Shown here: positions 15,780-45,226 of the stretch, piece by piece
Numbering within the stretch: position 1 is the first letter of the stretch
Layout: every line of letters starts with the position of its first letter
Source: Owenia fusiformis
Lineage: Eukaryota > Annelida > Polychaeta > Sabellida > Oweniidae
Assembly: GCA_903813345.2 (NCBI GenBank)
Contig: CAIIXF020000001.1
Coordinates: 20,851,915 to 20,915,914, forward strand
Length of the DNA: 64,000 nt
Direction of reading: 5' to 3'
Position numbers and translations under genes: made by a program
Notes under the pieces: generated by a model
Seen by the model: the letters and a program-made list of their open reading frames with translations, nothing else
Databases searched by the model: none
Told to the model about the DNA's origin: nothing

Positions 15780-16194
15780 ATGGCAGACGGAGAAGAAACA
15801 AGTAGAAATTTACCAGTTTCTACTTCGCAGGGACTACTCTCCCCACACAGACCGATGTTTATACGTGCCAGCGAGAGGTACCCTCGGACGCCCAAATGCG
15901 CCCGGTGTCGCAACCACGGTGTTGTATCGGCGCTGAAGGGACACAAACGTTATTGTCGATGGAGAGATTGCGTTTGCGCAAAATGTACCCTTATCGCGGA
16001 GAGACAGCGAGTGATGGCAGCCCAGGTGGCCCTGAGAAGGCAACAGGCGCAGGAAGAAAATGAAGCCCGAGAGATAGGGTTGCTGTATGGCACCCAGGGG
16101 CTCCTCAGGATGAACGCCGAGACTCTACCCACAGATACGCAATACTTGAATAAACCTGGCACAGATACAACGCAAGACAAACGGGAAGATTCTG
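15780..16194 (+). CDS. DMRTA2: DMRTA-like (DMRT4/5, dmrt99B) transcription factor, exon 1 with DM domain
   Basis: This is the first of two coding exons of a 355-residue protein. An in-frame TAA at 15768-15770 shortly upstream supports the ATG chosen. Residues about 36-90 form the DM zinc module. All eight ligands are present: C40, C43, H55 and C59 with H46, C64, C66 and C69. The recognition helix [18 protein letters not shown] follows. The stretch after it ([16 protein letters not shown]) closely matches the vertebrate DMRTA1/DMRTA2 sequence after the DM domain, which fixes the subfamily. The exon ends at GATTCTG with donor GTAAGT, in phase 1. DM proteins bind DNA in the minor groove; this class acts in neural, olfactory and gonad development in known animals, and that role is inferred here. 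The symbol is that of the vertebrate co-orthologue; dmrt99B is the insect name. Confidence 0.93.
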
Positions 16195-16758
16195 GTAAGT
16201 TTGATTATTTCATTTTCAATGTTTAGATTAATTGTATCACTTTTAGTTTGCGATTTTTGATAATTTGATTTACCTGTATACATTTTTTAATTCGCTTCTC
16301 TTTAAGGGAATGAGAAGGGTAAAGAGTGTAAACTGTAGAAAGCAATCTTCAAAAAGTTATACCAATCCAATTTCCCTTCATAATCTCCATTTCATTTTCT
16401 GAAAAAAAGAATTGAGATATTTGAAACTTACTGTCAACTCGTCTTTTAATTCATAATGGGCTGCTTTTGTGGTTTTACAATGTTGCTGTAACAATTTTTA
16501 TTTTAATAGTTTTTCAAAAATGAATTCATACCAAGTGCATCTTTTCAATGATGAAATAACATAAACGTGCTTGATTAATAGCTAGGTAATGAGAGCTTTT
16601 GAAACAAAATATCAAAATGCACATGGTGGTTTTACATAGCAATAACCAGGAGCTTCCATCATGTCCGTACAAAAGTCGCAACCAGATATGCTTGATTGTC
16701 TATGTTTTTTCTTCGCTCGCTGGACACCTATCATAAAATATTGAAAGACTACATTACA

Positions 16759-16886
16759 TAACATTCATTTACATTGTGAAAAGTATATAGTTCAGTGTAT
16801 TTAAAAAGACTTGTTATTTTGATAACATTCATTTGCATTGTGGAAAGTATATAATTCAGTGTATTTAAAAAGACTAATTATTTTGA
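16759..16886. repeat. Tandem duplication of a 64 bp unit
   Basis: Units 16759-16822 and 16823-16886 both begin TAACATTCATTT and end TTATTTTGA, with only a few differences between them. It is a recent local duplication inside the intron; no function is apparent. Confidence 0.8.
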
Positions 16887-17346
16887 ATTTGTAATTTATA
16901 GTTTTGGTGTTTGAACCTTTGTAGATTCTTGGAAACTTAACGCACAATCATAATCCAATCGTATCTCACTTTAATTAACTGTGAAAAAACTGATAACTTT
17001 ATTTTTCCTATATGGGAACTTTAAATTGCAATTACAAAACAAATGAGTGTATTTTGTCTACAACAATTGAGTCCAATACCCTCAACTAAACTGACGTTAT
17101 TCATCTTGTTATTATTTACCCATGCCTGTCATTGTTTCATATTCATTAGCAAATATTATTCAATGTCATATATATTTTTGCAAGACCATGAAGTTCCAAT
17201 ATGTCAAATGTCTATAATGTCACAGGGCGATTGACATTCTTTTTTGTATTATATAAAATAACTATTTTGTAATGAAAACTAAAAGAAGAACGAAAAATAA
17301 AACGATGAATTCATAGTTTTATGGGTCTAAATGAGGATGGTTTCAG

Positions 17347-17649
17347 TGGCGGATCCAGGAACCAACAAGGGGGGGGGCCCAAATTTGAGAATATAGAAAA
17401 AACCTTTTTTGGGCCCCTAAAACCGAAAAAGTGGGCCCAAATTTTGAAAATTTGAGGCCCATTTTCTTCCAAATTTGGCCTAAATTGAAAAAATAAGGCC
17501 TTAGAAGGCCTAATAATGACCAAAAGGCCCACTTTTTGGGGCCTTAAGATTTTTTTGGCCTAAAATTTTTTTGGGCCCAACTTCTTTTTTTTTGGGCCAA
17601 CCTTAGGGGGGGGGGCCCGGGCCCCATGGGCCCCCCCCCGGATCCGCCA
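17347..17649. mobile_element. GC-rich MITE with TGGCGGATCC terminal inverted repeats
   Basis: The 303 bp segment starts TGGCGGATCC and ends GGATCCGCCA, exact 10 bp inverted termini. They are followed inward by runs of G on the left and C on the right that extend the pairing. The interior is built from repeated GGCCC/GGGCCC words in T- and A-rich spacers and is unlike the surrounding intron. It has no coding capacity. Elements with GGCGGATCC ends are common in invertebrate genomes; the family and target duplication could not be settled, since the flanks (GGTTTCAG / TAGGGTTT) match only partly. Confidence 0.75.
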
Positions 17650-19230
17650 TAGGGTTTTCTACGTGGATAATAATGAAAATATGGTAAGAGCAAAAATAGA
17701 TATACAGCGAGTGATGGCAGCCATTCTGAAGAATTTGCCCCATAGCTTAACAAAGCCCATAAAGTTCAGACAAAATGCTCCGAAAATAAACAATTATATT
17801 TCTTTTATTTCTAATTAATAAACATTGTAATCTCTACCAAATCAATTTAGCGGTGCTCGTTATTGAATCAAACTTGAAGATAGTGTTTATGAACGTGAAC
17901 GTTCTGGAGAAAGTATCATGATTTCTTATCGTTTCTTAAGGGGCTGTAGATTGAATAGTGTCCTAATCGATCATATCTTAACAAGCTGTAGCGATTGAAG
18001 TTGTGACTTATTGCCTAATTAATACATTGTTGTCCGATGTTATGCTTTGTTTTTCAACTAATGATACCCTGTTCATTGATTCCAGTTACTATATTAGCAA
18101 TGAATATCGAGGCTGAAACCAAACGAGCAACATTTACGATTTTCCAAACAATGTGTCCTAAATATTACATAGAAAATATCTGAATTATAAAAGACCTCCG
18201 TTGTCTGAAATGACCTTAAAGGGCCAGATTTGTATACCAACTACCATGAATGTCACCTATAGATATTTTGTTAGGCCACTGCCCATACTTCTAAGTTACG
18301 TTCTCTGGCCCATACAAATCAATAAAACCCGCACAATTGCTATAAAAACTATATGGATTTTTCCCTGCCCGCCTTTCATCTCAGATAGTATGATCCGACC
18401 TTATTTACCAAGTATGTGGAAACAAATGTATTAAATTTAATCTGTCCATATGGTATATTGACTTTGAGACAAGGCAATGGTATCGTTCAGTTTATTAGAA
18501 CTCCTGCAATGTGTTTTAACATGAACTCTGCTACTGTAGCAAATGCTTTATATTGATTATCAATTGAGGTGATCTCGATTTCAAATAGCGCCGGAAGAGC
18601 TTGATGGAGATGTCACAAACCGCCGATTCTTCCTTCGAGTCATGCGTGTCTACAACTCTCATGTTCTTCATTTATGATATCTCGCACGTACTTTAAATAC
18701 ACAGTTACACACCCCTTAGCTTATCCAATAGGTCAATCTTACGTCAAGGAACATGAAACGTTATATCATGCTCTTGATCGTTAAATAAACACTTAGTTGT
18801 GACTGTAAAACAAAACATTGATGTTACCTTATATTTATTAGCGTTTTTGGTTTCCGAATTCCATTGAATGATTATTTTGCAACAATGAATACAATAATTG
18901 TCACTTTCCTTTTATTCGTCCAAAATATGTGTTTTAGCAACATCGCAGATGCTCCAAAAAGCGCAAAGTTTGCCAGTAGAATTAATAGAACAAGCCACTG
19001 AGCTCAAATATAATTATTATCACATATCGAAGGACTTAATACGTGTATTGTTATCGTCATTCAAAACCGAGAACCCACAATAACAACCAAAAGACGCAAC
19101 GGGCAGTGTTTGAAAACAAAAAAAACACAATTAACTTATGAAAACATACAGTGAAGTCATGACATACGATATAACTCCCTGCGTCTAGCTGGGTGTTCAA
19201 AATTACTTGTAACAAAAAAAGTCAATTACA

Positions 19231-19375
19231 TTCCCACGGTGTTATACTCATAGTCAGCATGGTCAAGTTTATAATTGGGAGCGGTCACGTTGTTATTAGG
19301 TAACTATTATTAACGTGACAATGGCCAGTGAAAGTGGGAATTATCATCTGGTTAATTGTAATTATCCATTTGCAA
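19231..19375. promoter_or_regulatory. Candidate intronic enhancer of the DMRTA-like gene
   Basis: Within 145 bp there are two Su(H)/RBPJ-type sites in opposite orientation (TTCCCACG at 19231-19238 and AGTGGGAA at 19333-19340). There is also a 36 bp near-palindrome with exact GTCACGTT/AACGTGAC ends (19284-19319), a SOX-type ACAATGG overlapping its right end, and a cluster of TAATTG/TAATTA homeodomain cores (19354-19368). The density and mirrored layout suggest a cis-regulatory module responding to Notch and SOX inputs. This is inference from motifs only; such short words also occur by chance in AT-rich DNA. Confidence 0.35.
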
Positions 19376-20295
19376 CCAGAGAAGCCACTGTTGTAATACA
19401 TTACTGTGTTAATGCTTTATTCAAGAAGTATTCTTTGGGTATATGTTGCACATGATGTAAGCTTTCTAGTATTTGATACGTTACCAGATTTTCCCAAATA
19501 ATTGTTTTTATTTTCTTAATCTGATAATAATACGCGCCATTAGTTCCCTACTGTGCTTGACTTTGACAACTATCCAGATATTAATAAATACTCACAAAGC
19601 ATATTACTTATGACAATTATTAAACTCCGAACAAATTAATTACCTCAAGACATAAGCTATTAATTGATGAACTTTATCTTAGTTAACAAATATAATATGT
19701 GATTCATACAGATTGAAATTCAGTTATTTGCGCAAATGACAAAAAGGCGACAGACACTTCGCCTCAATGATAATTCGTTAACTACCAGGGAAGATAAATT
19801 GCTTGAAGGAATTCAATAATTGCTCAATTACAAATAAAATATAACACAATGAGACATGTGGTATTGAAAACCTAAGAATCAAATGTTAATATCTCACTAA
19901 TTTACCAAGCTTTTCTTATGTACTTGTGACAAATGACTTGTTGGAACTCTGATTAAGGACTTAACGCCAATTCAATGCCTGGATTTGAAGAATGTTTGAT
20001 TAAAACTTGAAAAGATTAAGCTACTCTTCCCTTGATAAACGGATAATGTTATTGATAGCTGGTTAATTTGTGTTATTGTGAAAATAGCGCTGATACTTGA
20101 TATTCTCTTGATTGATTTCTGTACACTTGACTAGAATAGGCCTGACAACCGCACACCATCTCTTCTAACCACTTTACATTTAGTTCTGGCTACAATATCC
20201 TCATTTCCACAATCAAATTACATTTCCGTAATCTCTTATCGCTTACAAAAAATCAAAGAATCTTCTCTATTCAGCCATTCTTCCTTTATTTACAG

Positions 20296-20948
20296 GTCCA
20301 CTTCATGAAGCCATTCTTGAATCTGAAAAACAAACAGACCATGATAATCCCATCAGCCCTCTTAGAGATGATAGAGATTCGTCCTCACCAGATGGCAGCA
20401 TTAACGCAATCTCATCACCCCAACAGACGAGTGACCAAAACGAGGCTGAAATCACAGGGGACAACTCTGGGGATCCTCAAAACCGATCTTTAGACATGTT
20501 ATGTAGGGTATTTCCCCATATGAAAAGAAGCGTCCTTCAATTGATCTTGCAAGGTAGTGGAGGGGATTCAGTGAAAGCTATAGAACAAGTCTTGAACAAT
20601 CACTCTAATAAACAGAGTAAGGCAACTAGTAGTACAGAAGTGTTAAATATTCACAGACCATATCTCACAACGTCACCACCGACTGTATCAGCCACATCAG
20701 TGAAATCGGCATTTTCTCCCATTGCTGCCCATATGATGCCATCTGGCAGCTTGGGACCAATACGATACGGTTATGGAGCTGCGGCAAGAGGACTTATTTC
20801 TATGCCATATCCTTCAAACTTTTTACCTGGGCTTGCAGCTTCGGGGTACAATTACAATGGACTTGCCACAGGAACTAAATCTGGTCTCCCTTATGGGGCC
20901 ATGTATCCATATGCTTATCCATATACCGCCCCATCTGCAGAAAAATGA
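20296..20948 (+). CDS. DMRTA2: DMRTA-like transcription factor, exon 2 with DMA domain
   Basis: The exon follows acceptor TTTACAG, completes a split Gly codon (residue 139) and runs in frame to TGA at 20946-20948, adding 216 residues. A Ser/Asp/Pro-rich linker leads to the DMA domain at residues about 203-241 (SLDMLCRVFPHMKRSVLQLI and following, ending in AIEQVLNNH). The DMA domain is the ubiquitin-binding, UBA-like fold found in DMRTA, DMRT3 and dmrt93B proteins. The C-terminal part is rich in Gly, Tyr and Pro, with an FSPIAAHMMP block and a YPYAYPYTAPSAEK end, typical of the family. The combination of DM and DMA domains with the total length of 355 aa indicates a complete, intact gene. Confidence 0.93.
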
Positions 20949-23021
20949 ACATGAATAAATTAAAACATTATAATGACAGTTAGTTCGTATTATGGCCTGA
21001 AAACAGGTCTCTGGTACCATTGGCCTTTATCGGATGGCCATGATAACAATAATACAAATATGATATAAAAATGGCGAAAATGATAATTCACCAGAAATAA
21101 GTGATTATATTGTAATTTATCAACAATTAAAAGTATTTAAATATAATTATAATTATATATATGAAAATATGACTCGGTCTAACATGTTTGTGTGCTACAT
21201 ATATGTCATATGTCGTTGATTTACTCAGTCTACATTTTATTCAATTGCTTGTCTGGACGAGCATTCATTTAGCTTTCAAATTTCCAGTTCCCTTTCAAGC
21301 TTTGTAGTCGTATTTCAAAGTAAATTTAATCAACCCAACAGTTGACTTAAAGAAATATGGAAACATGAAATTTGAGGCAATTAAGTCGATATTGAATGTT
21401 GTTTGAGTTTTGATGGGGCCTAAGTACATTGTTAGTACAAGGGATGGGTTACATAGAAATACAATCAAAGAAAGCAGTGAAACAGTTTCAAATCTAAAAA
21501 TACCCAATAAAGTAAACGATCATTTCTAAAGAATAAGATACAGTTACCTGATTTCTGTTTTCAGTAACCCAACTCGGATGACCCTATCTATCAGACTACG
21601 ACTTTGTGAATCACAATGAACAATTTCAAACGTGTAAACAATTTAACATTAAACCATAATAAGTAAAATGTTTGGACTTGTTTGGTAGATTTGACGGATT
21701 CATCCTTTCAAAATGTTTATCGAATCCTATCTTTAGGTCCATGTTAGATTTTGAAATAGCATCCACCATGCACATTACGTTTTTGACCCGTGCTGGTAAC
21801 GAAATATCGCACATATAAACACATGTAGGCCTATCACCCAAAACAGCAAACGCATGATCGACTTTCAAAGAAACATTTCAGACTCACCATTTATATTCCT
21901 TACTAATACTATTATTATAGTCTTTTGTTACCCTATTACACAAGATAACATAATAACCAATTTGTTTTTCATAATTCTGTTCGGCTTGAAAGTGAAGAAT
22001 CTAAAAAAGATAATAGTTTTGCAAATGAAGGATCTAACGAAGCTCATATCATGTCAGAAATTCGCCATTATTGTGTGGAATTGATTGCGTTTTTCTTGTT
22101 TTGTTTCTTGTGAAATTGTTTTTGTTATTTACATGAATTGTTGCCCTTTGAACGACATTGACTGACTAATATGTGTACTATAAAAATTAATTAAACTTTA
22201 AAAAGGCACCAGGTTTATCGGTAGCCATGGTGACACATGATATGTAACCGATACCTTCGGCAACTTCTATTCTTTTTGTCAACTTGTCAGAATGAGTGAA
22301 TCTCTCAAGTTTTATTTTTGTGCACAAATGCGTGAATGCTACACCGAAGTTAAATTCACGCAGAAGGTTGCGGAAATCCCCCATTGTTTTATCTTCATAA
22401 TAAAATAAATATCTTAAGTTTTTTGAATTGACTAAAACGAATCTCGATTAATAAAAACCTGTAATGGTTGACTTTTTACCTTTCCCTTATTGTGGCCACT
22501 GGGGAATTGCAAATCCTGATAGATGTCATACACGATAGTGGGGTGACAATCTAATTTAGCCGTCAAGCACATATGCCATGGTCTTTTAGAATTTCTTAGA
22601 TGGAAACAATTGACTTAATGAAACTAACGATGTCAAATTATTTTTTGTTGTTCCTCATACATACTGTCAATAGACCTGAATAATGTATTGTATAGTTTCT
22701 AATAAAACCAACCTCAACTGATATTTAATTTTCTCTTTGGCATTTGACAATTGGTATTTATTCCTCCCTCTATTATAAACAATGCCTCAGCTTTCAATTA
22801 GTAATTTTTGTACGTTGAAACACTTTTCATTTGATACGGTTGTTAAGAAACACCAACAATTACATTGTAATACTTTCGATATTTAAAATGATTTTTTGGA
22901 GAACCAAATGCATCAAATCATCTAATGCTAAAATACAAAAATCTTAAGAAAACAATTGTGAATATGTATGTGCAAGTTCCTACAGAAAATTAACAAAAAT
23001 GGTTTCATCAAGAAAAATAAA
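20949..23021. other. 3' flank of the DMRTA-like gene
   Basis: This holds the 3' UTR and intergenic DNA. AATAAA occurs 6 bp after the stop (20954-20959, probably too close) and again at 21506-21511, the better poly(A) candidate. The rest has no supportable gene; small ORFs on both strands lack domains. Confidence 0.45.
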
Positions 23022-23182
23022 ACATCTAAGACTACATCAGTTATAAGGAAATCAAACCCATACTATCCCAAATCATAGTCCAATATAAATACCCCCTCTC
23101 CCACCATTTAAGTATACAATCACAATCCGAGACCATAACACCAAAGGACATTTCATTCATACTGAAGTCATTACAATATTTG
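23022..23182. repeat. Dispersed repeat, copy 1
   Basis: About 160 bp alignable by eye to 39399-39550 in the second DMRT gene's intron. Shared words in the same order include CATAAGGAA/TATAAGGAAATCAAA, CCCCCTCTCCCACCAT/CCCCTTCCCCCACCAT, TATACAATC, GGACATTTCATTCATACT and CATTACAA. Copies differ by many substitutions, so this is an old interspersed element. It lies immediately left of the foldback element. Confidence 0.6.
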
Positions 23183-23203
23183 TTGAAGAATAAAAGACTC
23201 TCG

Positions 23204-23689
23204 CACTGGTGATCCACTCGATTACGCTGGTTACCGAAACGGTTCGTTTCGGTAACAAAATGTCGGAACGTCGAAGGTACGATTTTTCCCTTTTCCTTAT
23301 TTCACACGTTGTAGGCAGAATTCCCACGACATTTTTATCACAAACGTATTATCATATGTTTGAGAAAATGTACATATTTGCGAACATATAGTTCAGAAGA
23401 CAACAGAATTGCCGATTTAATTCCTCACTTAAGTTATAGAAACGATATTTCGAAAAACAGTTAAGATCTGCACTTTTAACCCGTACCGTTTCTGTAACTT
23501 AAGTGAGAAATTAAATCGACGATTCTGTTAAGTGTGTCTTCTGAGCTATTTTTTCGCAAACATATACCATTTCTAAAACATATGATTCTGATACACGTTT
23601 GTGTCAAAAATTGTACTTTCGACGTTCCGACATTTTGTTACCGAAACGAACCGTTTCGGTAACCAGCGTAATTGAGTGGATTACCAGTG
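23204..23689. mobile_element. 486 bp foldback (long inverted-repeat) element with 5 bp target duplication
   Basis: The left arm (from CACTGGTGATCCACTC, about 230 bp) and right arm (ending GAGTGGATTACCAGTG) are reverse complements along most of their length, leaving only a short centre near 23.45 kb. Each arm also contains an inner palindrome, GTTACCGAAAC-GGTTC-GTTTCGGTAAC. The element is flanked on both sides by TCTCG (23199-23203 and 23690-23694), a probable target-site duplication. There is no credible ORF, so it is a non-autonomous MITE or foldback transposon. Confidence 0.8.
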
Positions 23690-23694
23690 TCTCG

Positions 23695-24955: not shown

Positions 24956-25826
24956 TTCCTGCTGTTGCCACTCATATGTCTTGTCGCAACTCATGTTTTT
25001 TGGCGTTGCCACACCCATTTCTTTGTGTTGCAACTCATGTTTTTGGGAATTGCCGATGCCATTCATGTTTCCTTGTGATGCAACTCATGTTTTTTGGAAA
25101 TTACCGTTACCATTCATGTTTCTTTGTGTTGCAACTCACGTTTTTGGAAATTGCCATTGCCATTCATGTTCCTTTGTGTTGCAACTCATGTTTTTGGAGA
25201 TTACCGTTGCCATCCATGTTTCTTTGTGTTGCAACTCATGTTTTTGGAAATTGCCGTTGCCATTCATGTTTCTTTGTGTTGCAACTCATGTTTTTGGAAA
25301 TTGCAGTTGCCATTCATGTTTCTTTGTGTTGCAACTCATGTTTCTGGAAATTGCCGTTGCCATTCATGTTTCCTTGTGTTGCAACTCATGTTTTTGGAAT
25401 TTGCCGTTGTCATTCATGTTTCTTTGTGTTGCAACTCATATTTTTGGAAATTGCCGTTGCCATTCATGTTTCTTTGTGTTGCAACACATGTTTTTGGAAA
25501 TTGCCGTTGCCATTCATGTTTCTTTGTGTTGCAACTGATGTTTTTGGAAAATGCCGTTGTCATTCACGTTTCCTTGTGTTGCAACTCATGTTTTTGGAAT
25601 TTGCCGTTGCCATTCATGTTTCTTTGTGTTGCAACTCATATTTTTGGAAATTGCCGTTGCCATTCATGTATCTTTGTGTTGCAACTCATGTTTTTGGAAA
25701 TTGCCGTTGCCATTCATGTTTCTTTGTGTTGCAACTGATGTTTTTTGGAAAATGCCGTTGCCATTCACGTTTCCTTGTGTTGCAACTCATGTTTTTGGAA
25801 TTTGCCGTTGCCATTCATGTTTCTTT
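24956..25826. repeat. Minisatellite array, left part, 50 bp unit
   Basis: About 16 copies of a 50 bp unit with consensus parts CATTCATGTTTCTTTGTG, TTGCAACTCATG, TTTTTGGAAATTGCCGTTGC. The leftmost 60-100 bp use a shorter, diverged version of the same words. Because 50 is not a multiple of three and the unit has no stop in any + frame, all three frames stay open and give Cys/Phe-rich pseudo-proteins of up to 309 codons. These have no start context or splice signals and are not annotated as genes. Confidence 0.95.
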
Positions 25827-28766
25827 TTTTTATTTTTTTTTATTTATAGTTTATTTTATTTACACAAAAAGCAATAGTTAATACAATACAATACAATTTG
25901 GCTAGGCTCAAAGAGCATTATTAGCCAAGTATGAATACAATATATAAAACCTTATAATCAAGGTAACATCTTTAAAGTTCACTCAACAGGGGCCTGGGTG
26001 ATGGCTGCACACTTTTCAAGAAATATTGCACTGAGACTGAGTATTTTGATATTCAAACGTCTGGTAAGTGATGGAGTACCATATAAGAATAATTGTAATT
26101 TTTCCATTTTAGTTTTAAATGTATTAAAGTATCCAAAATTTAGTTGGCAGAGTTGTGCTTCAAAGTCTACTAAAAATGGTTTCCTGAGGGGACAATTGAA
26201 AATCACATGGTGTGTGGTTTCATTATCTTGGTTGCAATAACATGTAGGACTTTGTACATTTGTAAAATTGTGGGCGTGAAGATGTGCTTGGAAAATAAGG
26301 TCTGATCTGACTCTATTTAAAATTATTTCTTGATGCCTTGTTATATGGAGGTCAGATGCTAAGAATACTTTAGGTGGAGCAATTTCTTCGAGGAAAGCTT
26401 TTTTAAATAATTTAACATTTTCTTTTTGCTTTATTTCAGGTTGGAGAGCATTCCATTCATTTAAAATTGAAATTATACATGATTTGTTCAAAGTATTTGA
26501 TCTTTTGACCGGAAGTTGATACATTGGGGTGTATCTTAGACCTTCTCTAATGGCAGGTCTGCGAAATTTAGTGAACATTTCTGAGACATACCCAGGCGCT
26601 AGATTTGCCTGAACTTTAAACATCAATGACATTCTGTGAACCTTTCTCTTTATTTCAAGAGAATTCCAGTTTAAACTTCTGAGCACTTTGGTGGATGATG
26701 TACCAAATATAGCACCAGAACAGATTAGAGAAGCTTTATAATAAATCTGATCAAGTTGTTTTAAATCCCTTGCTTTTCCACACCCATAAATGATGTCATA
26801 GAAGTCAAAATGTGGCATAATAAATGAAGAAAACATCAATTTTAGATCTTTCCCTCTTAATTTAGGGGCTAATGCCTTTAACGGATTTAAAAGTTTGTCT
26901 ATTTTGCTTATCATTTGATTAATGTGTGGTGTAAATGATAAGGTTTGATCTAGGACCAGTCCCAAGTGTTTATGTGTTTTAACTTTTGGTATTGGTTCAT
27001 CACCAAGATACAAGTCGGGGGTCAAAATTTCGGATTTAGAAGGATTGTAAAATGTTAGTTCCTTGCTTTTGGTTGCTTTAAATTGCATGTGCCATCTTGC
27101 TGACCAGTTGTGAACAGCATTCAAATCAGATTGCAAGGCTGCCATTTTTTCAATATTATTAGTGGAGTTGTACGAGCAGAAAATAGAGGAGTCATCAGCA
27201 AAAAGGAAACATTTGTTGTTAGTTTCATCGGTAAGGTCGTTTATGTATAAAAGGAACAAGAGGGGTCCTAAAATAGATCCCTGGGGAACTCCTGTATTTA
27301 TGTAGTTTTCATTTGACCAATTTGATTCGTGTCCGTCAATAACCACTCTTACCTGTCTATTCTTTAGATATGAGTCAAAGAAAGTGCATATGTTTGGTCC
27401 AAAACCATAGCTTGGAAGTTTGTTCAATATAAGTTTATGTGGCATCGAGTCAAAAGCGGCCGAAATGTCTAAAAATATTCCTTTCACATTTTCCCCATGG
27501 TCAATATAATTGGCAATATCATCTATAATTCTTAAGAGCTGATATTGAGTACTGTGGCCAGGAATAAAGCCACTTTGCAAGTTGTAAAGTAAATTATGGT
27601 CAACAAGAAATTTAAACATTTTGTTAAATACTACTTTTTCAAAGACTTTAGACAGGCAGCTTAGCAAAGTAACAGGTCTATAATTTGATACAATGTTTTT
27701 ATCACCTTTCTTAAAGATAGGGACAACATTTCCTAATTTCCAACATTTTGGAAATGTATTCAGAGTCAAAAGCTTATTAAACAGTTTTGAAAGTATGTGA
27801 GCTAATGATGGGGCTGATAGTTTAAGCATTTTATTACTAATGGAGTCTGGGCCACTAGCTTTGTCAGTCTTAAGCGCCAATAAAATTTCAAAAATTTCAG
27901 TATTGTCTGTTGAAAGAAGGTCAAAAAAGGCATCAGTTCTTTGGTTCAATTTAGTATCAATTTGGTCATTTTCAGTATGGAAACTTTTGATAAATTGATT
28001 CAGAAAAACTGTCGATTTCTCAAGACTACTCAAAACTGTATCTCCTTTTGAATTTATCAGAAAAGGAATTCTTGATTGACTATTTCCAAGAAACTGTTTA
28101 ATAATGTGCCAGTATCCCTTTGATCCAAAAGATTCTTTTGACAATTTAGCATAAAGCCTATTATCATTATCCTCTTTGGATTTAGAGATGGCCTCATTTA
28201 CTATTTTGCATTGCTCTTTGTATTTAATATAAGTACTTTCCTTGTTGGAATGCCTAAATTTATAATGCAGTTTGTTCCTTTTATTAATCAGAGATTTGAT
28301 GTGCTTGTTGAACCATGGTTTGTCATTAGCTTTTTTTATTATCATTTTATTTGGAATGTTTAATGTGAAAATTTGTAAAAGATTTGCTGAGAAATCCTTT
28401 ACAAGAATGTCAATATTATCACTGGCATCTATCAATTGTTCAAGGTTAGAAGATCTAATGTTGTCATTTAGGGACTGAACATTTGTTTTTGAATACTCCC
28501 AAACTCTACGAGAGTATGGTGGATCTCTTATTGTTCCTGTAAAAATATCAAAGATAAGGGTGCTGTGGTCTGTGTTACCAATAGGTGGTGTTACTCGGGA
28601 GGAAGAAATCATATTTGGATTGTTTGTAATTAGAAGGTCAATACATGACCTAGAGGTCAAAGTAACTCTGGTTGGCTCATCTATCAGTTGAGTCAGACAT
28701 AAATTTTGAATTGAGTCAGCTAAAATAGTTCCTTCTTGCTTAATTTGATCATCTTGCCACCATTTG
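25827..28766 (-). mobile_element. 5'-truncated non-LTR retrotransposon (LINE, Jockey/CR1-type) inserted in the minisatellite
   Basis: A 2.94 kb element lies on the minus strand. Its 3' end (left) has an A-rich tail (T-run at about 25824-25850), preceded by an AATAAA-containing 3' UTR of about 130 bp. At the other end it begins abruptly inside the endonuclease domain, so the 5' part is missing, as is usual for target-primed insertion. The target word TTCATGTTTCTTT is present on both sides (25814-25826 and 28767-28779). That is the expected target duplication, though the word is also part of every array unit. The element cleanly splits one array into two. Confidence 0.93.
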
Positions 28767-28771
28767 TTCAT
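25979..28771 (-). CDS. LINE ORF2 fragment: end of endonuclease plus reverse transcriptase, 930 codons
   Basis: One uninterrupted frame. The first about 90 residues are the C-terminal part of an APE-type endonuclease (SCIDLLITNN, then GNTDHSTLIF with the conserved DH pair). The reverse transcriptase follows with its ordered motifs: KASGPDSISNKML, NYRPVTLLSCLSKVFEK, the first catalytic Asp in FLDISAAFD, GVPQGSILGPLLFLLYINDL, and the catalytic FADD box in CFLFADDSSIF. A C-terminal Cys/His segment (CYCNQDNETTHHVIFNC) ends the protein. No RNase H is seen. The ATG at 28771 lies in the target-derived repeat, so the true upstream coding part is absent. An intact frame in a truncated copy points to a recent insertion; the copy cannot move on its own. 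Confidence 0.9.
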   Translation of the reverse strand: MNKWWQDDQIKQEGTILADSIQNLCLTQLIDEPTRVTLTSRSCIDLLITNNPNMISSSRVTPPIGNTDHSTLIFDIFTGTIRDPPYSRRVWEYSKTNVQSLNDNIRSSNLEQLIDASDNIDILVKDFSANLLQIFTLNIPNKMIIKKANDKPWFNKHIKSLINKRNKLHYKFRHSNKESTYIKYKEQCKIVNEAISKSKEDNDNRLYAKLSKESFGSKGYWHIIKQFLGNSQSRIPFLINSKGDTVLSSLEKSTVFLNQFIKSFHTENDQIDTKLNQRTDAFFDLLSTDNTEIFEILLALKTDKASGPDSISNKMLKLSAPSLAHILSKLFNKLLTLNTFPKCWKLGNVVPIFKKGDKNIVSNYRPVTLLSCLSKVFEKVVFNKMFKFLVDHNLLYNLQSGFIPGHSTQYQLLRIIDDIANYIDHGENVKGIFLDISAAFDSMPHKLILNKLPSYGFGPNICTFFDSYLKNRQVRVVIDGHESNWSNENYINTGVPQGSILGPLLFLLYINDLTDETNNKCFLFADDSSIFCSYNSTNNIEKMAALQSDLNAVHNWSARWHMQFKATKSKELTFYNPSKSEILTPDLYLGDEPIPKVKTHKHLGLVLDQTLSFTPHINQMISKIDKLLNPLKALAPKLRGKDLKLMFSSFIMPHFDFYDIIYGCGKARDLKQLDQIYYKASLICSGAIFGTSSTKVLRSLNWNSLEIKRKVHRMSLMFKVQANLAPGYVSEMFTKFRRPAIREGLRYTPMYQLPVKRSNTLNKSCIISILNEWNALQPEIKQKENVKLFKKAFLEEIAPPKVFLASDLHITRHQEIILNRVRSDLIFQAHLHAHNFTNVQSPTCYCNQDNETTHHVIFNCPLRKPFLVDFEAQLCQLNFGYFNTFKTKMEKLQLFLYGTPSLTRRLNIKILSLSAIFLEKCAAITQAPVE

Positions 28772-29349
28772 GTTTCTTTGTGTTGCAACTCATATTTTTG
28801 GAAATTGCCGTTGCCATTCATGTTTCTTTGTGTTGCAACTCATGTTTTTTGGAAATTGCCGTTGCCATTCATGTTTCTTTGTGTTGCAACTGATGTTTTT
28901 GGAAAATGCCGTTGCCATTTACGTTTCCTTGTGTTGCAACTCATGTTTTTGGAAATTGCCGATGCCATTCATGTTTCCTTGTGATGCAACTCATGTTTTT
29001 TGGAAATTACCGTTGCCATTCATGTTTCTTTGTGTTGCAACTCACGTTTTTGGAAATTGCCATTGCCATTCATGTTTCTTTGTGTTGCAACTCATATTTT
29101 TGGAAATTGCCGTTGCCATTCATGTTTCTTTGTGTTGCAACTCATGTTTTTGAAAATTGCCGTTGCCATTCATGTTTCTTTGTGTTGCAACTGATGTTTT
29201 TGGAAAATGCCGTTGCCATTCACGTTTCCTTGTGTTGCAACTCATGTTTTTGGAATTTGCCGTTGTCATTCATGTTTCTTTGTGTTGCAACTCATGTTTT
29301 TGGAAATTGCCGTTGCCATTCATGTTTCTTTGTGTTGCAACTCATGTTA
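28767..29349. repeat. Minisatellite array, right part, 50 bp unit
   Basis: About 11-12 further copies of the same 50 bp unit as at 24956-25826, continuing directly after the LINE. Shared unit variants such as CTGATGTTTTTGGAAAATGCC followed by CACGTTTCC occur in both halves, so the two blocks were one array before the insertion. The variants also recur at multi-unit spacing, which suggests block duplication. Confidence 0.93.
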
Positions 29350-36200: not shown

Positions 36201-37432
36201 GACATTCTTTATTTTAGATATTTAGCCTAAATGTACTTATCTTCGTGACATTAGGGGAAAAATGATCACAGCTGTTATACAAGTATAACTGTGTTACACT
36301 TTCAATGTGAATCGTTAAATTGTTTAAATTTGTATATTTTGTTTAACTATATTAGGATTTTATCGAAATAAATGCATTTATAAATTCATGTTTGTATGAA
36401 CTACGGTTTAACTGCTTCCTATCAAATGATGTTTAACTTTTGGATATTGAGCGCAATCATTCTAAAATAATCTCTATACACTTGAGTGTATTTTATCTTA
36501 TATATAAGCGTCAAAATAAACAATTGCTATTATGCACTAAGAACTGTTATTGATAATTTTTGAGAAATAGATATAAACAAATATCATAATTTTAAATGCT
36601 GATAAAAACTTGAACTACGTTTTTCCATCATATAACAATACTGTTTTAACAAGTGCAATGGTTGTATAAAGTCCACTGTATATTGTTTACACCGACGCAC
36701 TGACTATGAAATGTTCCGAGACTATAACTATGTAAAAGTTCTAAGATCAGCTATTCTAGAAAATGTTATTGTGTAAAATGATAAGTTATTATTCAACTTG
36801 TATGTAACTAACACTAGAGGTGTTGAGCAATTTGTATCAAGTTGACCATGTTTATCACGGTCTTTTTGGACTTACCACTGCCCATTATCTTGGACCATTG
36901 TCTGTGAATGTAGCTTATGGATTTTAAAGAATTCATAGAGACGCAGACATTGTGGAACAAATATGCTTGAATAGTCGGTCAATTGTTTCTGTGTTTAACG
37001 TGACCAAGTCTGTGTATCAGCCTTAAATTTGGGCAGCCATAGTTTGTTCTTCTTTTCAGAGAAATTTGATCGGATCCCAGTACCCGGATGAACATTCAAT
37101 AGATGTTTATGTGTTAAACATCGAACTATTCAACAAAATAAACGGTTAGCAATATAAAGTTGATACATGCGAGAGTGAGTCAATAAAAACTGGCTCCAGA
37201 TAATATACGTCACGATTAAGGTAAAGTCTACTACGTGAAATATTAATTAATACCCCTACTCCATTCAATGGTAAAAATTAAGCTGAAAATAACTTTATAT
37301 ATTCTGATTTTTGCCGGATTCTTTACGTGAGGATCAAAGTGCCGCAAAAACTGTTATTTTGCAAACGGCGATAAAACGGTAACAAATACTAGGCGACCGA
37401 TCTGTCATTCACTAGGGGTCCTAGTATCACTC
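30263..37432. other. Intergenic region between the two DMRT genes, right part
   Basis: About 7.2 kb of AT-rich DNA with no supportable exon. An A-run of about 20 bases lies at 31439-31458. The longest ORF (34820-35149, 109 codons) has no recognisable domain, no splice context and ordinary composition. The last few hundred bases become less AT-rich toward the second DMRT promoter. Confidence 0.45.
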
Positions 37433-37506
37433 CGCCAGCCAATCAGAATCGTCGATCTGTTAAACAGATACATCTTTCTAGTGCTCGACCAATTAGCGCC
37501 GCCAAT
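37433..37506 (+). promoter_or_regulatory. Triple CCAAT promoter region of the DMRT93B-like gene
   Basis: CGCCAGCCAATCAGA at 37433-37447 matches the motif upstream of the DMRTA-like gene in 14 of 15 bases. Two more CCAAT boxes follow at 37489-37493 and 37502-37506, all on the + strand and within 240 bp of the ATG. CCAAT clusters of this spacing are typical NF-Y targets. No strong TATA box is visible; CATAAGTAT near 37546 is at best weak. Confidence 0.5.
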
Positions 37507-37667
37507 AATCTTTAAGTGAAACTGGCCTCTGCTCTTGGGTCGATACATAAGTATCTACAACTATTTGGCAGAATTGGAAGCAATCTGGTCCCTCATAGAA
37601 GAGACGATACGCCTGATTTCATCTAAGTAGAAAAGGAATCTTAACAACCATCACGCTGGATCTAGAA

Positions 37668-38031
37668 ATGAGCGTAGCAAATAACGGGGCGATGTACCCC
37701 ATGACGGAAAAGGGTGCGAGAAAACCAAAATGTGCCAGATGTCGTAATCATGGCATGGTATCATGGCTAAAAGGACATAAACGCCATTGTGGATTCCGCG
37801 ATTGTACCTGTGCAAAATGCAATCTTATTGCCGAACGCCAGCGAGTTATGGCGGCTCAAGTCGCACTGAAACGTCAGCAAGCCGCAGAAGACGCCATCGC
37901 GCTTGGTCTACGAGCATGTTCAGGGTCGGAGAACATTTCGCGGGTACCAATGATGACGCCTGGACCATTATGGGGCCCGGGGACAATCAGCCCTCCTGAA
38001 AAGCAAGGCTTGAGTAGAGAAAGAGAAGAAG
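37668..38031 (+). CDS. DMRT93B: DMRT93B/DMRT3-like transcription factor, exon 1 with DM domain
   Basis: This is the first of two coding exons of a 393-residue protein. An in-frame TGA lies upstream at 37614-37616. The DM module spans residues about 18-72, with all zinc ligands present: C22, C25, H37 and C41, plus H28, C46, C48 and C51. The helix [18 protein letters not shown] follows. The tail [12 protein letters not shown] after the DM domain is the signature shared with insect dmrt93B, while SWLKGHKR recalls vertebrate DMRT3; the two are usually treated as one orthology group. Residue G42 sits where family members commonly have Arg or another larger residue, next to a zinc Cys. The donor is AAGAAG/GTATAT at 38032, phase 1. 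A role as a DNA-binding regulator is known for the family; this gene's tissue role is unknown. Confidence 0.9.
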
Positions 38032-41000
38032 GTATATTTCTATTTCTACATTTGTGTTGTTTGACTCGGATGTTGCCTTTTGTTCCTCTTTTCAGGGCCC
38101 AGTTTTAACTTTCAATAGTAGTATGCTTTTAAAGCTTATTTGAAATGGTAATTCTAAGAATTCATGGAAGCAATGATACGATTTAGAATTAATCTCGGTC
38201 CTTTCTCCGAACTTTTATTTGTGGATTTTTTACACCAATGCACGGTGGTATAGGCTTACTATAATATTGTTAATTACAATCAATTATTCTTACAATCCAA
38301 TCTTTGTTTGAGTTGCTATTTGCCCTTTCTTTTTGTGCAAGAATTTACAATTTGTGTCCCTAATGTCAAGATTTTCTTTTATCCATTTTTCTAAATTGTT
38401 ATTAATACTAAGATTTGGCATTATGATAAGATATATACCGATAAAACTGCAGACCACACTGATTCATTGTATGCAAAAAGGATGGTAATCTTCAAATACA
38501 TTTAGGTTGCGGTGATAAGAGATAAAAGAAAGTAAAACCTAAAACATATTTTTATATTTTGAAGAGGTATTATTCGTCATATGAAGTGTTGTCCCTTTGG
38601 ACAGCTCTCTTGTAGAACATGTTTCTTTTATTCTTTGATCTAAGACCTCTATATTCCCCCCAGTAGGTTACTACATAGGTCTGTTGCTAGATGTATTTAC
38701 CTTTGTTTTAAAGATTAATCCTTAGTACATTTGAAAGGATTACCTGTGAGAAGTTTTGCTAACAAAATGTTCTGACATATTTACACAATGTATTTTCTAT
38801 TTTGTTTTAGAGTGCTACTTTATTTGTGACATTTTGAATGATCTTCTACTGTTGTCTGTTATCAAGTATTACATAGGTTGTCCATAATCTTTGCGGTTTT
38901 GATCAAATTCTTTCATAAACATAAATAATAGAATGATATAGTTAATCCGTTTATATGCATAAATATACATACTTTGAACCGGTGTAAGGAATATTTTCAT
39001 CCTTATGATATTTTAGTGGCTTAGATGCATTTAATTATACAAATGCGAATGCAATTAACATGTTATTAGGATAAATATTTTCCCAGACGACAATATGAGC
39101 TTAGGATGCTGTCTAACGTGATGCAACTTGATTCACCATTCAGTAACATATTTGTCAGCGAAACAAAACAATTTGCTATTAAACGATGATTTAAATGTTT
39201 TATCTTTCAATATTTTCAAAAATAAACGAGAAGCGTCCATCCATTAGCATAATCTTTTAGTATAACTCACTTTGAATAATACATAATCAGAGGTTTGGTT
39301 TAGAAAATATTTCTGCAAAAACGTATTATATGTAAGATTAAAATAAGTTCATGTACCACAATGAAAAATGTGTACTTAAAGATACAACTAGAATAGGAAC
39401 ATCTTGATTACAACCGGTCATAAGGAATCAAACACACCGCATCCTAAACAATGCCCCTTCCCCCACCATCTGAAACCATATATACAATCCAAAAACACGC
39501 AGCCATGGGACATTTCATTCATACTATAACCATTACAAAACATTTAAAAACAATGAAAGGGAAGGCTTATGATAAACGATCATACAATAACAATTTAAAA
39601 TATTACTTTTGGTCTTACTTTTAAAGTTTGGAAGCATGCAACAATGATGTATGTTGAAGGTGAATTTAGAAAGTATTTCCAGATATTTGCCTCCGTGTTT
39701 CTAACTTGACCATATGGTACCTACAGATCCCAGACTTGATCTCACTCAGATAACTTGTAACCAATTATACAAATCTTGTGCTAATTACCTCTAATTAATT
39801 ACATGTATATGTGAGAATTCCAAACCCTCTTGTTGTGTCTGTAATACACTCATGTTTGTGTCATTCGACTTGAATTTCGCATTTATATTTAACATGTGCT
39901 GTGAATAATAAATGCGCTCGTGAATTTTTCTTCCCATCTTCTATGCATAGGTTTGATAATTTCATATTTTTGTAATAGCCTCTTTCAAATGTCAAAATTG
40001 CCTTAATAGCGCCAATGTAGATCATAAAAGATAGGTTTGTGAAAATATGGAAGACAAAGACATGACGCAAGGGGATCAGACCGACCTGATGTAAGGATTA
40101 CCTTATGATGTGCATTTGAATCTCGTTCTTGAAATTAACAAACTATTTATCACTTCTGTAATCGTGCCTTCAATTTTGTGCGTTTTAAAAAATGCAACTT
40201 GCACTGAAAATGATCTTCGTATAATTAACCACAATCTGAAATTCCTGACATGATATTTGAAGCAACATTCTTATGTTGGAAAACAGGTTTGTTTTTATGG
40301 TAAAATTGTTTCCATGTATTTAGCTGAAGATTGACACAGAGGGAAATCACAGGGATAACTGACACATTGAAATCTGAACCCATATCAGTTGCTATCTAGG
40401 CCTCTCTCTTGGTAATTTTATTTTGGAAGAAGAAATGAAAATATTATGATTTGCCATCGGCCTTACCGACTTTGCGCCTCCCACGATGGTGACAGTTGCA
40501 GTGTACATGTCGCACCCTGACGTACTATTATAATGAAATCATTTCACACAACACGCGCTTCTTATCCATCCAAAACAAAATAGATTTTAAATTCAAATTT
40601 ATATAAAAAGTCAAAATAATTTGATTAGGAAATAAACATTTTGAAATAAATAATATATTTGAATAAATTTATATACATATTTAAATAAATTTACCTTTTC
40701 AATTACACAAGATATATACCTAACAAAGTAGACATTATTAATGTATTTGTTATATCCAAATTTGATTCATTTCAGGAAATATTTTGTGAATTTAATTTGA
40801 TTTTATCGGAGTTTTTAGAACTGAAAGCTTTATTTACTAGATGAATGATGCCTGATTTTTAATAAACATAATAAAATGTTTTCAATTTATTTTTAGTATA
40901 TTATAATTTCCATTTAATTCAGATCATCTATACTTCTATAGAATATCTATAGAATAATGATGAACTGCTGAAACTAGTGGTTTAAAAAGTTTTACATCGT

Positions 41001-44000
41001 GCTTTAGACAGCATACTTCATTGTCAAATGGACATTTCGTCCACTATTATTCATATTAAATCTTTATGATTGATGGTATTTTGATACGAAAGTAAGATTT
41101 TATTATCACGAGTACTTATTTCAAAACATTTGGTCAGCCGATGTTGACTATATGGCACTCGAAGAGTTATTTCATAGCGATATTTAAAGAGAGAATCAGA
41201 TCTAGCGAGGAAAATAAACAAAAAATATTAGAATAGTTTTGGCCCATGCCATTTCTTGTCATGTCTATTTTCTAAAAAATCGCCAAAGTACATACTTTAT
41301 TCCAGGAAAACTAAAGATTTTTACGGTTTTTTATTATTTGGAAGAATTTGAACACATTCCCCTCATTTTTGCATTTCAAATCGTTAATAACATCACTAAT
41401 TTATAACATCTTTTGAGAAATATTGTATTCGAGATCATAAGGGAATATTGGTAGTCCAATTGAACACCAATTTGCCACCCCTATAGCTCTAATTTTGACT
41501 TTAATCAATCAAACATCATTTATGAAATCGTTTCTATCTCTGTGGACAAAAATAAATGTAAGATTAGACGCACTAGGTCACGCTAAATACATTTCTATTG
41601 GGATGAAGGATGAATTTCAATAAATAATTGATTCATGTTAATTGCGTTTGTCTTTGCCAAAATTTTCTTTTTTAGTTGTCCCTGTTAAATTATTTATCTG
41701 CTTTTCCAAACGCCCTCTCGTATTATATCACTTTATTGTAACAATCTGCAATTTAGAACCTTTAACTTGTCTAATAATACCACACAATCAAACTGGTTGA
41801 TCTGGCATTGCATTTCTAACAACTTTGATAAGTCCAGGAAGATATTTCATTTTAGAGAGGCCAGACTGATGTGTGAATATCTTAGATACCTCACTGACTC
41901 CATTTACAAACACCTAGGTTGATTCCCGGGTTGATTTCTTAAATATTATATATCCATTCATTGGTAATCCCCTTACTAGACTGCTCTATTCAACAAAAGT
42001 CAAATTCTAAGCTTAAAAGAGAGTGTGGTTAGGGCTTGTTGAATATAATTCAAACTCCCCCTCTCACTAATCTGAACAATGGTATAAACATTTCCTCTGT
42101 GGATTAGGGGTGTGAGACCGCTAAAAACTAAAGCATTCAACTTTCTTAGATAAAAGATACCGATCTTGTCAACTTTTCAGCTTTAATGTTAAACAGTGTT
42201 TTTATTTTTTGATTGATGTAGTGTCGTCTTGTAGTCATTTCGGTTAGTATATCATTGGTATTTTATTACTGTCAACGTAGCTGATAAGTAAATTGATTAA
42301 GTTGCAAAGCGATTAGTCCAAAGTGAAATATTATTTTCACAATTATGAAATTATACTTCCTGGACTAGATTGATATGTCAAATGAGTCTGTTTGCTGGTC
42401 ATGTTTATGCATCACAATGACTTTTACGTCGCCTAAATTATTCATGCTTGCAAAACAATCGAGAAAATAGTTCCTAATTATCCTGCCGCCATCGTGGAGA
42501 ATGATGGATCATGTTTGGATACCAATCCTTTTAAGGGTCCTCTCATGTGATCGGGAATATTGTGTGTCTATTATTCATTATTTCATTTTTTGTGACATTC
42601 TGTATCTTGTTAAAACGCAACAAGATTTAGAGTTGTAGTTTCCAACTGTGCGTATTGTCAGTATCACAATAATATTCAGTCTTGGCAGTAGTAAGATTAA
42701 TGGACTCAAATATTTATTGTGTTAAGTTTTCTAAAACGATGTTAAGATATGTGTTTGTCTTTATTGAATTGATACTTTATTTAACTCTTAAAAATGCAAC
42801 CATCAATCAAAATAAATTAAAGTTTGATCAAAAAATAAATATTTTGTTGTGGACTTAAGACAAGATTGCAAATTCAATTATTCTAACAATAAAGTGCAAA
42901 TACTCCTCGATCATACATATCTATTATTTACAATTTGAATCAGACTTTATTTAACTTTAAACTAAAATTAGTTCAAGGGTCATTTTTAAAAATCTAATTT
43001 AGACTTGGGTGGGCAAGCAGACATGTTCGTTAACATTGTATCTCACTTCACTTTGACAACCCTACGAATACTATTTCCTTAACTGCCATTTGCTAAAACA
43101 AAGCAAAGACAAATATTTGTCACAAAATATTAATTCAAACATGTTTCTCTGTTATATTGATGTATCGTTTTTGTTTTAAGTATTTTCAAACAGTTTTTAT
43201 GCCAAATGTTGAAGTTGTCGATAGTGGCATGTTCTTGTCGGGATTTAAAACGCTAGGAGACAAACTTTACATAGTTATGTATATTAAAACTCATATAACA
43301 ATCCAGGGTTATCTTGTATGTATGGTAGCATTTTGAATTATTTTGTGTGGTGTTATTATATTTTCTTCAGACTTCGTTCGAAGATAATGTTCATTTAGTT
43401 TGTCAGCTATTTCATCATTTCTGATTCTGAATGTTTGCTGTGTGAGTTAGTTTCTTTTGAAATCAGTATTAATATGAGCAACACTGAAAAAACAATTAAT
43501 TTGATTGCATAAGACTTGCACAATACTTGAACTGTAGAATACAAACAGATAAAAGTACTATATTCGCTGTTTCGGGGCTATTAGAGTTTCAATTCGTCAA
43601 ATGATATGAGATCAGAGCATGTTTCTAGCGAAATCATGTCGCCTTTTAGATTTACTCTAGCAACCTCTCCCCTATCAGTTTCTATGCTGTGCGGCTTAGC
43701 ACACACAGACTGAAAGCCCGAGGCCCATGAGTTGTTTTTAAATACGCCAACCAGCATTGTAGAGGGACTAAGGCACAATAGGACCGGCTAGAATTACATG
43801 GGTTTAGAGTAAATAAATATAAAAAACAAGCAATTTCTTTGTTGTAGCTCTTATTGTACATAGTTGAAGGATACATTTCAAAGGTACCGATATCTTGAAT
43901 TAGAATAGGCAAATATGAAACTTAAATTTCAGAACGAAATGATATTGAGAATAGAGACAGTCAATTCTTGATTAGTTTAGAAATTTCAATCCCGTTTACT

Positions 44001-44408
44001 TAACAATTTTGTCTGTACAGTCTTTTTGTAAATTAGTCCGTTTATTTGATATCTTTTCAAGCATTGATAAATGTATTTTTGATATTATCAATATTATTAA
44101 ACAATTAAATGTACAACACTTCAGAATAAAATAAATATAAAATCATTTAATATGTTGCCACATCTCATGGTTACAAAGGTTGGACTAATTAATTCGAAAA
44201 GCACTTTTCGATATGATAATATCAGATTTTCTCATAATTCGTATATTCTTTGTGGTTTTTGAATTAAATTATCTTATACTATGAAGAGTTCTGTATACAT
44301 TTAATCAATTCATTTATGATTCAAGTTCAGACTGTCCACATTGAGATATTTTTGTTTATTCAAAAGGTGAGAGCAATATACTTAGAGATTGTTTATCTGT
44401 TATTGCAG
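38032..44408 (+). other. 6.4 kb phase-1 intron of the DMRT93B-like gene
   Basis: The intron runs from donor GTATAT to acceptor TTATTGCAG. It holds one dispersed repeat (39399-39550) and otherwise AT-rich DNA, very AT-rich at 40.57-40.93 kb. Two islands of less biased composition (about 40.39-40.54 and 42.48-42.56 kb) stand out as possible conserved elements. No nested gene is supported. Confidence 0.8.
39399..39550. repeat. Dispersed repeat, copy 2
   Basis: Matches 23022-23182 in order and orientation, including the shared CCCCCACCAT block and the word GGACATTTCATTCATACT. The two copies are diverged and 16 kb apart, one in the DMRT intergenic region and one in the second DMRT intron. Interspersed element of unknown family; no terminal repeats seen. 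Confidence 0.6.
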
Positions 44409-45226
44409 GTCGTAGTCACATGTCTGATCCAGAATGTACAGAGATAGATGTTGATAGCGATAGTGATGGAGAAGCAGACCAACCAAGCCCTATTAACAGC
44501 CCACGCCTACAAAAGTCTCCCCCAAGCCCCGAACAACGCAGTCCCACAGAACCGCCCACTGGTTATAGACCAGGCAGATTAACAAAAATAGAAATTCTAG
44601 AACGCATATTCCCATTTCAAAAAAGGACAGTGCTTGATTTGGTGCTACAAGGGTGCAATGGTGACTTGGTGAAGGCTATTGAACATTTCCTCTCCGCACA
44701 GGACACGATGGTTGCCCAGCAACAAATGGCCATGCATTCACGGTCTAGTGACGTCAGTTCTTATCATCCATACATGACCGCCTTTTCTCCATTTAGGACA
44801 AGCACTTCAGCCGCAAACACTAAAATTCCATTTGGGGGAATCAAGTCTGCATTCACTCCACTCTCCCCTAATTCACACCCGCCTGGATACCCGGCATCTG
44901 CCTTACACTCGGCTTTTACTCCTCGGTCCGCAGCGTTTACAACAGAAGCACTGTTAGCGAGAACGCCTGCGCACCAACAGATAACAAGAACAGGGGATTT
45001 GATGTTACCAACACCGCCTCAGTTCCCCTACCCTGGAATAACCAACCTGCCGTCCAGCCTGCCTGGTGGTCTCCCCCCGCATTTGTTCCTTCACCCGTAT
45101 AGGCCATTTACTTTGGAGCACCCAGCTCAAAAGAGTCCAAGCAAAAACAGTGACAGATCGGGTGATTCTGAAGATGGGTGGGAAGATTCGGGTAGTAATA
45201 GGGGCTCTAACAAAGACGCTGAATAG
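44409..45226 (+). CDS. DMRT93B: DMRT93B/DMRT3-like transcription factor, exon 2 with DMA domain
   Basis: The exon completes the split Gly codon (residue 122) and runs in frame for 271 more residues to TAG. An acidic/Ser tract (EIDVDSDSDGEAD) and a Pro/Ser-rich stretch precede the DMA domain at residues about 178-219 (LTKIEILERIFPFQKRTVLD and following, ending in AIEHFLSAQ). The C-terminal half has the repeated SAFTPLSP/SAFTPRSAAFTTEALL motifs seen in DMRT3/DMRT93B relatives, followed by a Pro-rich block and a Ser/Asp-rich tail (SGDSEDGWEDSGSNRG). The protein appears complete. DMA domains bind ubiquitin in characterised relatives; partner binding here is inferred. Confidence 0.9.

Follow-up and report, generated by a model that had tools for sequence, protein, structure and literature searches.

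A neighbouring pair of DM and DMA domain genes in the annelid Owenia fusiformis, read as an ancient dmrt4/5–dmrt93B tandem

Here we present two neighbouring DMRT genes of the annelid Owenia fusiformis, located in a 64,000-nucleotide stretch of chromosome C1 (C1:20,851,915-20,915,914; hereafter the window). The genome measures 498 Mb and C1 62.2 Mb. Each gene encodes a DM domain and a DMA domain on two exons; both lie on the + strand, and together they span positions 15780-45226 of the window. Judged from its sequence, gene 1 is probably dmrt4/5 (also known as dmrt99B or DMRTA), and gene 2 is best called dmrt93B. We read the pair as an ancient dmrt4/5–dmrt93B tandem, with a probability of about 0.88. 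The arrangement is already known from other animals (Mawaribuchi et al. 2019, PMC6737965), and Owenia fusiformis adds another genome to the published pair. The gene models comprise the following features, in window positions:

15780..16194, + strand, dmrt4/5 (dmrt99B/DMRTA-type) coding exon 1: ATG at 15780, open frame, donor GTAAGT, phase 1
15885-16025, + strand, dmrt4/5 DM domain: 88.6 bits in the genome search
16195..20295, + strand, dmrt4/5 intron between the DM and DMA exons: phase 1, GT-AG, 53 codons past the DM core
20296..20948, + strand, dmrt4/5 coding exon 2: acceptor TTCCTTTATTTACAG, frame continuing from exon 1, TGA stop
20490-20591, + strand, dmrt4/5 DMA domain: genome search and Pfam
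37668..38031, + strand, dmrt93B coding exon 1: open frame, donor GTATAT, phase 1
37719-37859, + strand, dmrt93B DM domain: 82.3 bits in the genome search
38032..44408, + strand, dmrt93B intron between the DM and DMA exons: phase 1, GT-AG, 54 codons past the DM core
44409..45226, + strand, dmrt93B coding exon 2: acceptor TCTGTTATTGCAG, frame continuing from exon 1, TAG stop
44588-44689, + strand, dmrt93B DMA domain: genome search and Pfam

The predicted products are 355 amino acids long for gene 1 and 393 for gene 2. Both models score above the Pfam cut-offs for DM (5.1e-24 for gene 1 and 4.6e-22 for gene 2) and for DMA (5.2e-14 and 5.6e-16, respectively), so that each holds the two domains in one open model, as DMRT genes with a DMA domain do. 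The arrangement is head to tail, and the stop codon of the first gene is 16,719 bases away from the ATG of the second. The second-exon starts were picked among several AG sites, some of the alternatives being frame-compatible: the dmrt4/5 acceptor TTCCTTTATTTACAG is the best of several judged by eye, and for dmrt93B position 44367 is a frame-compatible alternative. A first-pass annotation of this DNA had described two intact DM+DMA genes adjacent on one strand, and the open frames, GT-AG introns and Pfam scores confirm that description. A profile search of the whole genome (E value up to 0.001) returned six DM and three DMA matches, of which the pair holds two each; chance is therefore not in question. 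A PDB search with the DMA exon of gene 2 gave no significant match (best 0.8, to an unrelated protein).

The reference DM domains were those of human DMRT1 and fly DSX, taken from the PDB, and those of DMRTA1, DMRTA2, DMRT3 and DMRT2, whose letters are provisional. Gene 1 agrees with the provisional human DMRTA2 at 45 of 47 DM positions (65 of 69 positions), compared with 38 of 47 for DMRT1; gene 2 agrees with the provisional DMRTA2 at 49 of 69 positions. Over the 47 DM columns, gene 2 shares 38 with the provisional DMRT3, 38 with DMRT1 and 39 with the provisional DMRTA1. It also contains SWLKGHKR, presumably a mark of dmrt93B. By position, gene 2 lies where dmrt93B is expected, 16.7 kb from dmrt4/5 on the + strand; it does not lie beside dmrt2, as a DMRT3 would, the dmrt2 gene being 3.8 Mb away at C1:17.06 Mb.

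In PMC6737965, dmrt4/5 adjoins dmrt93B in 4 of 8 invertebrates, namely amphioxus (B. floridae), acorn worm (S. kowalevskii) and the gastropods Aplysia (A. californica) and Lottia (L. gigantea), and dmrt4 and dmrt93B are in tandem in elephant shark (C. milii) and coelacanth (L. chalumnae). The same two genes are adjacent in our window. The Drosophila genes are apart, on one chromosome (PMC6737965), and in a centipede Dmrt11E, Dmrt99B and Dmrt93B are all on chromosome 11 (PMC12562212). As a whole, the interpretation offered by the first-pass annotation stands in part. A retained ancestral linkage is supported by adjacency published in both deuterostomes and protostomes, and six species other than this annelid are on record with the two genes side by side (PMC6737965). 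The reasoning from vertebrates fares less well. The comparison was drawn with DMRT3, which is the wrong gene: where dmrt93B is kept it adjoins dmrt4, and DMRT3 goes with dmrt2, which it adjoins in deuterostomes (PMC6737965). To place DMRTA genes elsewhere in vertebrates is too simple, as higher vertebrates carry dmrt4 on the dmrt1-dmrt3-dmrt2 chromosome (PMC7689362). Nor can the cluster literally date from before the subfamilies split, because two neighbouring subfamilies are the outcome of that split.

The relation of dmrt93B to DMRT3 bears on what the pair should be called. If DMRT3 and dmrt93B were one subfamily, gene 2 would be a true DMRT3 orthologue and the pair a DMRTA-DMRT3 pair, a tenable alternative that we hold to be the less probable one. 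It draws on PMC12562212, which classes 93B with DMRT3, on PMC10541798 and PMC12530298, in which a bivalve DM+DMA gene is named DMRT3, and on the proposal that dmrt3 derives from dmrt93B (PMC7689362). PMC6737965, by contrast, separates the two groups by tree and by synteny; as the papers disagree, the naming remains disputed. In our data, the DM match of gene 2 to the provisional DMRT3 is no higher than that to DMRT1 or the provisional DMRTA1, and 3.8 Mb separate gene 2 from dmrt2, the gene that DMRT3 adjoins in deuterostomes (PMC6737965). Gene 2 was thus not accepted as a plain DMRT3, as it does not lie beside dmrt2.

The two genes agree with each other at 39 of 47 DM positions, barely above the 38 of 47 at which each agrees with human DMRT1 (PDB). 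The split between them is therefore old and does not reflect a recent local duplication. They are 39% identical across 285 amino acids and share the motif (V/I)KSAF(S/T)P beyond the DMA domain. Their DM–DMA introns, both in phase 1, differ in position by a single codon (53 against 54 codons past the DM core), which is consistent with a single two-exon founder. The dmrt2 gene of C1 (34% identical to gene 1 over 273 amino acids) is split elsewhere, its DM exon stopping right behind the DM core in phase 2. The shared intron, identity and motif of genes 1 and 2, with dmrt2 split differently, thus fit sister copies of a two-exon founder. A recent tandem duplication within this animal's own lineage would also give adjacent genes on one strand with a matching intron, but it is the least probable of the explanations weighed here. 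It was rejected on divergence: the DM domains are just one position closer to each other than to DMRT1, identity over the longer alignment is only 39%, the agreement with the provisional DMRTA2 is higher for gene 1 than for gene 2 (65/69 but 49/69), and mutual identity is not clearly above that to other subfamilies. It is likewise very improbable that the genes were joined secondarily in this genome and resemble the published pairs by coincidence. We found no point in support of this, and the identical neighbours in distant phyla (PMC6737965) and the presence in the pair of two of just three DMA matches in 498 Mb speak against it. For the ancient tandem, the course of events would be that one two-exon gene, with a DNA-binding DM domain and a CUE-like, ubiquitin-binding DMA domain, was tandemly duplicated before the bilaterian phyla split, and that the two copies remained adjacent by descent here, as in amphioxus, acorn worm, two gastropods, elephant shark and coelacanth.

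Two further features lie between the genes:

25979..28789, - strand, reverse transcriptase frame of a non-long-terminal-repeat (non-LTR) retrotransposon, which does not belong to the pair: RVT_1 4.4e-31
25018-25826 and 28767-29348, 50-base minisatellite flanking the retrotransposon on both sides

The between-gene scan covered 66 open frames of at least 45 amino acids and one frame of 935 amino acids, setting aside shorter frames, frames starting within tandem arrays, short frames overlapping the retrotransposon and frames in the two introns. The 935-residue frame is the reverse transcriptase, with two weaker retroelement domains besides RVT_1. The 66 other frames held no recognisable host gene, the sole match up to 0.01 being FBA_2 (0.0028) in one frame. 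The first-pass claim that no gene lies between the two DMRT genes thus agrees with the scanned frames, in which the retrotransposon and the minisatellites are the only clear features. From 25018 to 29348, the non-LTR retrotransposon is nested in the 50-base minisatellite, its endonuclease match being partial and weak. The sequence TTCATGTTTCTTT is present at both retrotransposon junctions, yet it also belongs to the minisatellite repeat unit. ARAGORN found no transfer RNA in the window and Rfam no match at gathering scores; a bacterial promoter scan and an AATAAA scan were uninformative.

The surroundings of the pair were sampled with 9 frames outside the window (50 kb per side) and 1 inside, and with 87 in-window frames, of which 80 are right of the pair and 7 at 1-4.6 kb. 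The choice of near-pair frames followed a crude codon score, for which the DMRT exons and a KANK frame had served as the training set. Domains in these flank and window frames were PP2C, PH, Kelch/BTB, somatomedin B, ankyrin ion channel and EGF. PMC6737965 names cdkn2, faf, ttc39 and hook beside the pair, and the flanking domains sampled here are, unlike the pair itself, not among the genes that the text of that paper names.

The DM domain binds a 13-bp pseudo-palindrome, and the DMA domain may control the stability of the protein by binding ubiquitin (PMC9361473); relatives of the two genes have roles in nervous-system development (PMC9361473, PMC6737965). By their families, each gene would encode a transcription factor that acts in the development of neural or sensory tissue, and its DMA domain may tune the stability of the protein. 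The pair would persist mainly through slow chromosome rearrangement. This is favoured over shared control because a retrotransposon and minisatellites are tolerated in the interval and because Drosophila has the genes apart. The two genes may have control elements in common, but it seems to us unlikely that selection holds them together through enhancers shared over the long introns and the 16.7 kb interval, with separation being harmful. The published adjacency in six distant species (PMC6737965) and the lack of any other recognised host gene in the scanned between-gene frames would suit such selection; the retroelement and repeats inside the interval would not, nor would the separation of the genes along one Drosophila chromosome and onto different scaffolds in sea urchin (PMC6737965).

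The neighbourhood extends along C1 beyond the window. We searched the genome for eight families that the synteny papers name near DMRT genes (PMC6737965, PMC7689362). CAAP1 and HOOK were added after the first six had already mapped to C1, and at least 12 other named families lay outside the test, including cdkn2, faf, foxd, glis, keap1, pgm, pde, srek1, spef2, rad54, lrrc40 and ndufa. Matches were assigned to loci by hand, some matches may escape the long models, and the ELAV search ran at E values up to 1e-8. The only KANK match in the genome is at C1:17,167,853, 109 kb from dmrt2. Both TTC39 loci are on C1 (22.16 and 58.6 Mb), as are the single SnAC match (SMARCA2/4 type; 6.49 Mb) and the single CAAP1 match (C1:28,236,201), the latter at a distance of 92 kb from an ELAV gene with several exons (28,328,759). 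HOOK scores above the cut-off at C1 31.2 Mb, with a second match on C8 below it. ELAV has two loci on C1 and a third on C6; the single, weaker match at C1 38.8 Mb may be another RNA-binding protein. At C6:1,877,495-1,885,773, two neighbouring ELAV frames are apparently intronless and perhaps retrocopies, the top frame outscoring every exon of the multi-exon C1 gene. DOCK and WLS-like families each have one locus on C1 (57.7 and 14.28 Mb, respectively) and a better-scoring one elsewhere (C4 and C11).

Each of the eight families thus has a C1 member, and 10 of 14 loci are on C1, or 9 of 12 once the two weakest ones, at C1:38.8 Mb and on C8, are dropped. C1 makes up 12.5% of the genome, and the binomial tail for 10 of 14 is 5.7e-7; as the families were chosen from papers and the loci are not independent, this and the other C1 statistics are indicative only. 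In a control with the nuclear-receptor zf-C4 domain, 0 of 66 matches (37 loci by hand) were on C1 (Fisher 7.8e-8). Under an even spread, 0 of 37 loci has a chance of 0.007, that is, the control is depleted on C1, and the contrast is smaller than the Fisher figure suggests. All 66 zf-C4 matches are on C3-C12, with none on C1 or C2.

Besides the pair, the genome has one more DM+DMA gene, dmrt2 itself, at C1:17,055,399-17,058,839. Its DMA domain (Pfam, 4.7e-10) is at 5304-5402 within the gene (2400-5840) in extracted locus L001, and its DM domain agrees with the provisional human DMRT2 at 44 of 47 positions. It carries ISERMRKRRAFADK, presumably a DMRT2 mark. The chance of one named gene lying within 112 kb of dmrt2, as KANK does, is about 4.5e-4 before correction for the eight families tried. 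The stretch from dmrt2 to KANK holds the end of a tyrosine kinase and an otopetrin. The genome search gave no other DM match beside dmrt2, hence no sign of DMRT1 or DMRT3 there. Most bivalve DMRT2 genes also carry a C-terminal DMA domain, and vertebrate and insect DMRT2 have a single DM domain (PMC10541798); a passage of PMC12530298 attributes DMA to most Dmrt-3 and Dmrt-4/5 genes of bivalves, without naming Dmrt-2.

Two further DM loci were seen. On C12 (C12:11,750,428-11,751,446, - strand; 4878-6004 of locus L002), two divergent DM domains, alike at 22 of 47 positions, lie within about 1.1 kb and possibly belong to one gene. Double-DM Dmrt-1L genes are described in Mytilida and Pomacea (PMC12530298). 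At C5:10,288,455 (2360-2713 of locus L003), a 118-residue frame has a DM match that is both weak (30.5 bits) and shortened, and is possibly a decayed or fast-evolving DM gene.

C1 may be an unduplicated counterpart of the vertebrate DMRT regions, the neighbour families of which are found together on this one chromosome. KANK near dmrt2 recalls vertebrate kank-dmrt1-dmrt3-dmrt2, and CAAP1 near ELAV recalls dmrt4-elavl2-caap1 and dmrt5-elavl4 (both in PMC7689362; gar in PMC6737965); TTC39, SMARCA-type (SnAC), HOOK and DOCK members share the chromosome, as in those regions. Unlike them, C1 has a single copy, which extends over about 25 Mb (6.5-31.2 Mb), additional matches being located at 38.8 and 57-59 Mb. 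A kinase end and an otopetrin separate dmrt2 from KANK, and no DM match adjoins dmrt2. On balance we lean towards a bilaterian ancestor with one DMRT neighbourhood (KANK-dmrt2...dmrt4/5-dmrt93B...CAAP1-ELAV, with TTC39, HOOK and SMARCA), in which three DM+DMA genes arose from one founder by local duplication. The neighbourhood would be unduplicated here, the vertebrate DMRT1-3-2 and DMRTA regions would be copies split after the genome doublings, and dmrt2 would later have lost its DMA domain. Within this proposal, the support for a single ancestral neighbourhood of KANK, dmrt2, dmrt4/5, dmrt93B, CAAP1 and ELAV comes from one genome.

Several observations weigh against the ancient tandem and the wider neighbourhood. 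Both gene names rest on presumed sequence marks and published gene order rather than on a tree. Whole-chromosome linkage is widely conserved in animals, so linkage on C1 need not mean function. The best WLS-like, DOCK and ELAV matches are off C1 (C11, C4 and C6). Cdkn2, faf, ttc39 and hook were not seen in the sampled near-pair frames (for cdkn2 and faf no genome-wide search was made), and the closest TTC39 match is 1.26 Mb from the pair; within this sampling, the genes next to the pair are therefore not in the published order. The retrotransposon and minisatellites indicate that the interval is not tightly constrained. Finally, adjacency is reported in only 4 of 8 invertebrates, the sea urchin genes being on different scaffolds (PMC6737965).

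The Owenia fusiformis pair corrects the comparison with DMRT3. The linkage on C1 unites dmrt2-dmrt3 and dmrt4/5-dmrt93B, two linkages kept separate in PMC6737965, together with the vertebrate KANK and ELAV-CAAP1 neighbours. As the two linkages are joined on C1, the origin of the vertebrate DMRT sex-determination region becomes testable against a seemingly unduplicated chromosome. The DMA domain of the C1 dmrt2 fits the idea that dmrt2 once had this domain and lost it in vertebrates and insects (compare PMC10541798).

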